A stretch of DNA of 64,000 bases. Origin: Herpetosiphonaceae bacterium (GTDB taxonomy: Bacteria > Chloroflexota > Chloroflexia > Chloroflexales > Kallotenuaceae). Positions 1,429 to 38,071 of the stretch are shown piece by piece; position 1 is the first letter of the stretch, and the number at the start of each line of letters is the position of its first letter. A model generated the notes under the pieces. It searched no databases. It was not told the origin of the DNA and was given only the letters and a program-made list of their open reading frames with translations. The translations under genes and the position numbers were made by a program. The stretch spans positions 1 through 64,000 of the forward strand of contig JACDGP010000011.1 in the NCBI GenBank assembly GCA_013821605.1. Direction: 5' to 3'.

Positions 1429-1872
1429 TTAGGCCGTCGTAGCCTCTACCGGCTCCTGTGGCCCACCGACGAGTTTAGCTACGGCGTCCCGTAACAGAGT
1501 CTCTATTGCTCCTCGTATCGCCTTTGAAGCACACATCTTCAAAGCCTTTTGCTCAAGCTGACGAATGCGCTCACGGCTGACCCCATAATTCTTCGCAATA
1601 TCTCGCAGTGTGTCAGCCGGATTTCCATCAAAACCGAAGCGCCGTACAAGGATTTGGTACAACCGTGCTCCATCACGATCAGCGACGACTTGTTCCTGAA
1701 CAGCCCCGGTATAGGCATTGATCACGTCTTGAAGATACTCAGTACGAATGCTATCGAGCTGTTGGTGATCAAAGTGTAGGTGTGCAAGCAAGTCAATGAG
1801 CCGAGTATCGTGACCATAAGTGGCAGTGAGGAATGCATTTATGCCTACGATCTGGATTCTTTGGCTCATCAT
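1429..1872 (-). CDS. Sigma-70 region 4-like DNA-binding protein
   Basis: A 147-residue protein if started at the ATG at 1872, which follows a GGGGGAA ribosome-binding site. An ATG at 1869 is equally possible, and an upstream ATG at 1944 lacks a site. Residues about 85-125 contain DTLRDIAKNYGVSRERIRQLEQKAL, a canonical region 4.2 helix-turn-helix of primary-type sigma factors (the VSRERIRQIExKAL signature). Regions 2 and 3 are absent, and the N-terminal 80 residues match nothing I recognise. It may be a region-4-only regulator, an anti-sigma-like decoy, or a degenerate sigma factor. Upstream lie an extended -10 promoter and an array of TGTACCA repeats (2044-2218), which make autoregulation or array control plausible but unproven. 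Confidence 0.7.
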   Translation of the reverse strand: MMSQRIQIVGINAFLTATYGHDTRLIDLLAHLHFDHQQLDSIRTEYLQDVINAYTGAVQEQVVADRDGARLYQILVRRFGFDGNPADTLRDIAKNYGVSRERIRQLEQKALKMCASKAIRGAIETLLRDAVAKLVGGPQEPVEATTA

Positions 1873-1914: not shown

Positions 1915-2043
1915 TTCGACTATTTTGGTATTACCACAACTCATGAGTTAATCAGAGTCCGTTCATTGCCTTTCCTAGAACATATGTGTTACACTACCCC
2001 CAGTTCGTTCTTACTGGTCCGGTCTGCACATCCTTCGAGGACG

Positions 2044-2218
2044 TGTACCAGGAAACACCGACAACGCGTGTATCAGTACCATGTACCAAAGTTGAACGTA
2101 AATGTACCAAAGTGTACCAACATTGAACGTAAATGTACCAAAGTGCATGAGGGGCGTGTACCAAAACTGAACGTAAATATACCAAAACGCGCGAGGGCTC
2201 TGTACCAAGTCTGTACCA
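2044..2218. repeat. TGTACCA repeat array A
   Basis: Eight exact TGTACCA copies start at 2044, 2082, 2103, 2113, 2134, 2157, 2201 and 2212, with single-base variants TGTATCA at 2069, AGTACCA at 2075 and TATACCA at 2178. Steps are mostly 10-13, 21 or 23 bases, close to whole helical turns. Three copies (2082, 2113, 2157) are followed by TTGAACGTAAA or CTGAACGTAAA. The array lies between the GNAT gene and the sigma-like gene, on the upstream side of the latter. A shorter sister array with the same core is at 36463-36548. It looks like a cluster of protein-binding sites. It is not a CRISPR array, because spacing is too short and the intervals are partly conserved. Confidence 0.75.
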
Positions 2219-2237
2219 CGGCTTCGCCAATCGCGAA

Positions 2238-2259
2238 ATTCCGCATAGGAATGCGGAAT
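2238..2259 (-). terminator. Hairpin terminator after the GNAT gene
   Basis: Perfect 9-bp stem ATTCCGCAT/ATGCGGAAT with a 4-base loop, about 40 bases after the stop of the minus-strand acetyltransferase. On the minus strand it is followed by a short T-rich stretch (TTTCG). Confidence 0.5.
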
Positions 2260-2299
2260 CTTCCCAACCCCCATTTTCGCTTGCTAACAACGCCATGGG

Positions 2300-36183: not shown

Positions 36184-36259
36184 GCCAACATAGCTCAGTT
36201 GGTAGAGCAACTGTTTCGTAAATAGTAGGTCAAGGGTTCGAGTCCCTTTGTTGGCTCCA
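36184..36259 (+). tRNA. tRNA-Thr (anticodon CGT)
   Basis: A full cloverleaf can be drawn: acceptor GCCAACA/TGTTGGC (7 bp), D arm GCTC/GAGC, anticodon arm ACTGT/ATAGT with loop TTCGTAA (anticodon CGT, reading ACG), and T arm AAGGG/CCCTT with TTCGAGT loop. The discriminator is T and the CCA end is encoded. It has its own promoter and terminator. Confidence 0.93.
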
Positions 36260-36313: not shown

Positions 36314-36439
36314 CTTTATAACGTCGAGCCTAGCTTCCTCCATAGCTCTTACTAAGCTCTTTTCGAACATCCGTTTGCTTTTTATGGTAACTTGTGGTAT
36401 AATATACCCCATTCGTTGGTATCGGTTCAGCTTGCACAT
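36302..36439 (-). CDS. Small uncharacterised protein (45 aa) downstream of repeat array B
   Basis: On the minus strand an ATG at 36439 is preceded by AAGGAGAT (36446-36453), one of the best ribosome-binding sites in the window, with a 6-base gap. The 45-residue product starts MCKLNRYQRMGYI and ends in a charged helical stretch RMFEKSLVRAMEEARLDVI. It is basic and small enough to be a DNA-binding or toxin/antitoxin-type protein, but no family is recognised. The TGTACCA array B begins 24 bases upstream of the start. The stop codon lies within the tRNA terminator hairpin. A longer ORF in the same frame through the array is probably not translated. Confidence 0.45.
   Translation of the reverse strand: MCKLNRYQRMGYIIPQVTIKSKRMFEKSLVRAMEEARLDVIKTGG
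36376..36404 (+). promoter_or_regulatory. Candidate plus-strand promoter facing array B
   Basis: TTGCTT (36376-36381), a 17-base spacer and TATAAT (36399-36404) with an extended TGG before it. It would transcribe into array B toward the secreted-protein gene at 36819. It lies inside the 45-codon minus-strand gene, so either the two overlap or one is not real. Confidence 0.4.
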
Positions 36440-36462: not shown

Positions 36463-36548
36463 TGTACCAGGGAGCATCGAAAAAGTGTACCAGTACCATG
36501 TACCAAAGTTGAACGTGAATGTACCAAAACGCGTGGGGTCCTGTACCA
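36463..36548. repeat. TGTACCA repeat array B
   Basis: Five exact TGTACCA copies start at 36463, 36486, 36499, 36520 and 36542, plus AGTACCA at 36492; steps are 23, 13, 21 and 22 bases. The central part (AGTACCA-TGTACCA-AAGTTGAACGT-xAA-TGTACCA) matches array A at 2075-2109 with one base change. Continuing from the copies, both arrays also share AAACGCG followed by a G-rich stretch. The orientation relative to the flanking minus-strand gene is the same as in array A. Confidence 0.75.
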
Positions 36549-36580
36549 CTATGGAGGCCGTACCGTAACAACCATTTGCT

Positions 36581-36746
36581 ATTGCTCCCATTGCTTCCAT
36601 TGTGAAATCATTGTTTTCTATTGCTTTTTGATGAGGCAAGCAATGATGAAGCAAGCGTTGGACGTTGTTCCCCATTGCTCCCGAATCACGAAATAGCGCT
36701 TCCCAAAGCGAAAACTGGATCGTCAAGGATTTCCACTGCTAGCAAT
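36581..36746. repeat. ATTGCT short repeats beside array B
   Basis: ATTGCT occurs at 36581, 36590, 36620 and 36674, and its complement AGCAAT at 36639 and 36741, in a 166-base AT-richer stretch upstream of the gene at 36819. It could be simple low-complexity sequence or weak binding sites. Confidence 0.35.
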
Positions 36747-36818
36747 GACACGGCATAGACATTTACCCAGGGCACTGTTAGAATGCAGAAGCCTCCCAAC
36801 ATCGATCACGAGGATGCT

Positions 36819-37963: not shown

Positions 37964-38071
37964 CTCTTATTCAGAGGGGTGGAGGGACCGGCCCTACGAA
38001 GCCCCGACAACCAGGCCAGCGAAGTTGCTGTCCCAGGTGCCAAAACCGGCAGAGATACTGGATGATGAGAG
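37964..38071 (+). promoter_or_regulatory. SAM-I (S-box) riboswitch
   Basis: The aptamer matches the S-box consensus: AGAGGGGTGGAGGGACCGG, then CCCTACGAAGCCCCGACAACC, then GGTGCCAAAACCGG. The closing P1 stem can be drawn as CTCTTATT (37964-37971) with GATGAGAG (38064-38071), and the P4 hairpin as CCGG/CTGG. It binds S-adenosylmethionine. A terminator at 38117-38148 provides the expression platform, so high SAM should switch the downstream APS reductase and sulfite reductase genes off. Confidence 0.93.

Follow-up and report, generated by a model that had tools for sequence, protein, structure and literature searches.

The STRR of cyanobacteria are heptanucleotide repeats arranged head-to-tail, and sponge RNAs of the CsrB/RsmZ type carry GGA motifs in hairpin loops. 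The heptads of Omega (ParB) of pSM19035, 5'-WATCACW-3', lie on the plasmid in runs of 7-10 contiguous copies (PMC9499535), and the LexA motif published for Gram-positive bacteria is GAAC-N4-GTTC (PMC3323433). The heptamer arrays described here share with the Omega heptads 7-bp non-palindromic sites, direct and inverted, near promoters, but they are mostly spaced by 21 bp, are dispersed over the chromosome and lie downstream of the promoter; at most three exact copies abut, against the at least four contiguous heptads by which an Omega/ParB array would be recognized. Like the STRR, they are 7-bp intergenic repeats scattered over a genome, but their copies stand mostly 21 bp apart instead of head-to-tail and are tied to a promoter. 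As in the CsrB/RsmZ RNAs, a putative non-coding transcript would contain many copies of a short motif, but the motif is UGUAMCA, it does not sit in a set of stable hairpins, and the gene copies are many. The promoters of the repeated units (hereafter modules) resemble LexA/SOS promoters of the recA type, with GAAC-N4-GTGC/GTTC over the -10 or -35 in the form also used by this genome's own recA and by its relatives; they differ in reading into heptamer arrays at tens of places and not into repair genes. The array that is the subject of this work, array A, is tentatively regarded as one copy of a lineage-specific, SOS-controlled non-coding unit with multivalent heptamers that may act rather as RNA than as DNA, a reading to which we give somewhat less than even weight.

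Array A was located in a window of 64 kb, the whole stretch of DNA that was analysed (Table 1). Exact copies of TGTACCA begin at 2044, 2082, 2103, 2113, 2134, 2157, 2201 and 2212, and copies with one mismatch at 2069 (TGTATCA), 2075 (AGTACCA) and 2178 (TATACCA), confirming the eight exact and three near-exact copies in 175 bp of the preliminary description. TGTACCA occurs 22 times in the window, compared with 5.05 ± 2.41 times in shuffled sequence, and the highest count reached by an exact 7-mer in 187 bp was 8 in the window as against 3-5 in 40 dinucleotide shuffles, so that the array is not a product of chance. An unbiased scan of the 64 kb for 7-mer clusters returned only array A and a second cluster, array B. 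Coding sequence was considered as an explanation of array A, in which one frame is open, and was rejected, as steps of 10, 20, 22 and 23 bp shift the frame and other copies of the array contain early stops.

Table 1. Positions in the window of the two modules and of the gene beside module A
Feature	Position	Strand	Description
Gene for lone sigma-70 region-4-like protein	1429..1872	-	Pfam PF04545, E 1.2e-9; judged to lie outside the module
Promoter, module A	1966..1995	+	-35-like TTGCCT at 1966-1971; LexA/recA-type box plus -10 GAACATATGTGTTACACT at 1978-1995
Leader, promoter to array A	1996..2043	+	48 bp; inside the similarity region common to the modules
Array A	2044..2218	+	8 exact and 3 near copies of TGTACCA; linkers of type 1 (with TGAACGTAAA) and of type 2 (variable)
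CATTGYT segment remnant (3' part), module A	2224..2299	+	nhmmer, profile positions 115-190, E 2.4e-9
Promoter, module B	36365..36403	+	GAACATCCGTTTG box at 36365-36377; extended -10 TTGTGGTATAAT at 36392-36403, -10 score 8/8
Array B	36463..36548	+	5 exact TGTACCA heptamers
CATTGYT segment, module B	36576..36751	+	model R1, E 3.6e-33; nhmmer 36578-36751

The exact copies of array A follow one another at 38, 21, 10, 21, 23, 44 and 11 bp, with steps of 6-7 bp as well once the near copies are included, and the phase concentration R at 10.5 bp was 0.61 for neighbouring steps and 0.33 for all pairs. The proposal that the copies fall on nearly one face of the helix is therefore partly right: steps of 10-11 and 20-22 bp are in phase, and those of 7, 13-14 and 23-25 bp are out of phase. 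The conserved tail once ascribed to several copies turned out to be no tail, since the sequence concerned, TGAACGTAAA, occurs three times in the array, each time immediately 5' of the next copy.

A genome-wide search for TGTACCA clusters, which had been proposed earlier, found multiple dispersed ones. The genome (5.88 Mb, 259 contigs) contains 28 dispersed arrays, which are related by descent and are not independent observations when counted: 20 of TGTACCA, including two remnants that keep two copies each, and eight of TGTAACA, a class reached by tracing the segment downstream of the TGTACCA arrays. The interiors are pure, all-C in 18 arrays and all-A in eight; A-class arrays have C at no place other than their borders, and one C-class array has a border A. 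The commonest step is 21 bp (86 of 176), while a step of 7 bp occurs eight times, and the leader is 28-109 bp long in most arrays. Direct copies are far commoner than inverted ones (n = 12), which switch letter with their class (TGGTACA or TGTTACA) and in 11 of the 12 cases are followed without a gap, at exactly +7, by a direct copy, forming 14-bp palindromes. Among heptamers anchored by their linkers, 42 were exact, two had one mismatch and one was out of place, i.e., 42 of the 44 properly placed copies were exact, whereas linker positions depart from their commonest base in 2-42% of copies. Near-invariant heptamers between linkers that are free to vary point to sequence-specific recognition; the heptamers resemble recognition sites, not chance repeats.

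The extent of the repeated unit was delimited by aligning 35 modules on the -10. Similarity begins 50-60 bp 5' of the end of this element and fades 250-450 bp downstream; the conserved unit thus starts at the promoter, and its edges fit a transcription unit of promoter plus transcribed region. Sequence comparison shows that the promoters of about 35 dispersed modules are alike, being of the sigma70 type with an extended -10 and a recA-like LexA-type box, and that they read into a TGTACCA/TGTAACA array, a CATTGYT-rich segment, or both. A near-perfect extended -10 (TGnTATAAT, at least 7/8) is found in the 150 bp preceding the array, on its own strand, in 18 of 27 arrays; the figure was 2.6% for random windows and 3 of 27 for the opposite strand. 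The promoters of modules A and B score below the threshold of a generic consensus promoter scan, and the support for them is therefore comparative.

The module A promoter is an exact match to GAACANNYGTGYTAYAMT. This sequence has 12 exact matches in the genome, ten at arrays (A included), one at a CATTG module remnant on contig C193 and one at recA, where the box lies 117 bp 5' of the ATG; allowing up to two mismatches gave 58 matches, compared with 12 for a reversed control pattern. A second type of promoter, to which that of module B belongs, carries GAACRTNYGTTYG over the -35, and 11 of the 15 genome matches to it are at modules, the remaining four lying within apparent coding sequence. Both heptamer classes are found with both promoter types, which indicates that promoter and array have been reassorted. 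A module on contig C133 (C133:4459, minus strand, L284) consists of the promoter and first unit without an array, and is followed by a DinB-like gene (assigned by eye). The array at L037 precedes a ClbS/DinB-like gene, also assigned by eye.

A LexA-type operator overlapping the promoter, the mark of a LexA regulon, is present at the modules by sequence, and lexA itself has GAACAGGTGTTC directly after its -10. Eight of 13 recA promoters of relatives contain GAAC-N4-GTGCTATACT or ...AAT, one contains GCAC-N4-GTGCTATTAT (GCAC-N4-GTGC), one contains GAACTGAGGTGCTATACT (GAACTGAGGTGC), and three gave no match to the pattern used. The form prevailing at recA in the order is GAAC-N4-GTGCTATACT and not the textbook GAAC-N4-GTTC (loci L388-L400). 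SOS control of the modules is well supported by these comparisons, and LexA would be the protein bound at the module boxes, repressing the modules until DNA damage releases them. The position of the arrays just downstream of recA-like promoters suggests that the multi-copy non-coding unit is probably damage-induced. A gene on contig C16 (C16:1012-1173, L279) encodes a 97-aa protein that consists of the DNA-binding domain of LexA and lacks the protease part; it has its own GAACATTCGTAC box and adjoins a divergent CATTG module. This protein is a possible alternative repressor, specific to the modules.

The preliminary description had instead likened array A to an operator or a cluster of iterons, with the product of the adjacent gene as a possible ligand. 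That protein does have a region-4 helix-turn-helix and is encoded about 170 bp from the array; its matches in relatives are no more than sigma-factor-like (25-46% identity). However, array A lies downstream of its own promoter, which diverges from the sigma-like gene, the array is judged not to be an operator of that gene, and no such neighbour was seen at any of the other 27 arrays (1 of 28 in all). The divergent orientation and the lack of this neighbour elsewhere make the product a poor ligand candidate, and the reading is very improbable. Tabulation of the genes that the clusters precede, likewise proposed earlier, gave neighbours without an obvious common family, with the next gene pointing the same way as the array in 17 of 27 cases; the arrays are accordingly not operators of a regulon. 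Plasmid iterons would be expected to have a linked replication initiator gene; Rep-like genes were not seen beside the arrays by ORF inspection (without a family search of each gene), and the flanking genes look chromosomal and varied.

The distribution of the modules was also investigated. The TGTAACA class was found in none of 81 other genomes of the order and the TGTACCA class in none of 59 relatives, nor was the module found in the 81 genomes. The comparison with related genomes thus placed the clusters in this genome only, among those examined, and they are not tied to particular genes, the outcome that the preliminary description had named as speaking against its operator reading. A scan of genome contigs gave four matches (Oscillochloris sp. 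ZM17-4, Chloroflexales ZM16-3, a Prevotella MAG and an Anaerolineae MAG), all of them lone sites with no array around them and chance-like. Viral contigs hold many TGTACCA triples, some with coding-type periods, and the module scaffold was in none of those examined; plasmids and phages gave no match to the module. A sample of 0.75 Mb from genomes of the same family contained no comparable dispersed array and no exact SOS-type box, one box having one mismatch. Head-to-tail STRR-like runs were observed in same-family genomes, (CAAGTTT)n at L339:3915-3977 and (CTGATCG)n at L348 near 12800. A literature search on TGTACCA repeats, SOS-driven repeats and LexA in Chloroflexi found nothing matching.

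The CATTGYT-rich segment of many modules is about 195 bp long and occurs in 31 copies in the genome, either following or preceding (C84) the array, or standing without an array downstream of a promoter of this kind. Model R1 found no convincing copy elsewhere in the order; one relative gave two weak matches, with E 0.0015 and 0.0047, which were judged to be chance. Inverted termini, ATTGTTCCCATTGATC...GATCAATGGGAACAAT, bound the segment in L227, L231, L232, L234 and L048, and other copies end in CATTGCTAGCAATG; the segment may be a mobile one of its own.

An alternative is that the modules are an interspersed repeat, selfish or neutral, which transposition or recombination has spread and which has no cellular role, the identity of the heptamers reflecting recent amplification. 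Confinement to one of 82 genomes of the order, the absence of shared neighbour genes, the inverted termini of several CATTG segments and the occurrence of modules that adjoin insertion sequences or lack an array would all fit. MITEs and transposon subterminal repeats can likewise be multi-copy and lineage-specific, and some copies of the CATTG segment end in inverted termini, but inspection of the module ends (promoter; CATTGCTAGCAATG or array) revealed no terminal inverted repeats, and the left edge is a promoter, so a simple transposon end, which the preliminary description had named as an outcome that would refute its proposal, does not account for the repeats. Neither the near-invariance of the heptamers beside linker bases that vary by up to 40% nor the retention of the LexA-type box across diverged modules would be expected of such a repeat, and we consider this explanation unlikely.

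RNA folding was unremarkable. The arrays folded no better than shuffled sequences (A, z -0.92; B, z -1.0), 27 CATTG segments gave no consensus structure (-0.88 kcal/mol), and the accessibility of the heptamers was weakly above a shuffled-linker control (mean z +0.62, over related arrays). An Rfam search of the window matched neither array nor module and returned only a SAM riboswitch (37964-38071, 72.1 bits) and a tRNA (36184-36256, slightly upstream of module B), and at four other module loci nothing came near the gathering score. A recognized terminator was not seen at the modules. A sponge without hairpins is compatible with the folding results.

In the other reading, a protein coats the heptamers as DNA behind the SOS promoter, in a 7-/21-bp register, and the resulting nucleoprotein array serves as a roadblock, repressor or organizing site. 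Steps of 7, 10-11 and 20-22 bp, both motif orientations and the fixed abutting geometry of the 14-bp palindromes (TGGTACATGTACCA/TGTTACATGTAACA) suit DNA recognition, and the palindromes formed by 11 of 12 inverted copies count against RNA. The class-wide switch of letter in direct and inverted copies together and the lack of RNA structure are also in its favour. However, one orientation prevails after the promoter, the sites begin 28-109 bp past the -10, which is unusual for operators, many steps (13, 14, 23-25 bp) are out of helical phase, and no candidate gene is linked to the arrays. A DNA array is a real possibility, to which we give a little less weight than to the RNA-leaning unit. The transcript is slightly favoured as the carrier because the promoter, the orientation of the heptamers and the edges of the unit all follow transcription. 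In the favoured non-coding unit, the heptamers would be multivalent sites for a putative sequence-specific partner, and the repeated, mostly unstructured UGUAMCA of the transcript would serve as a sponge or scaffold to which a protein or small RNA binds.

The modules might, more doubtfully, represent an undescribed ncRNA gene family, in which tens of SOS-induced transcripts per genome present single-stranded arrays of one of two interchangeable letter classes, UGUACCA or UGUAACA, and thereby act as multivalent decoys of small RNAs or of proteins of the damage response. If the proposed control by LexA is correct, at least 20-35 non-coding loci would be under the SOS response in this lineage. 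The near-invariant heptamer points to one dedicated partner, whose identification would bring to light a new RNA sponge induced by damage or else a new promoter-proximal coating of DNA. Two pure letter classes on one scaffold, each combined with both promoter types, would constitute a natural experiment in the co-evolution of a site and its reader.
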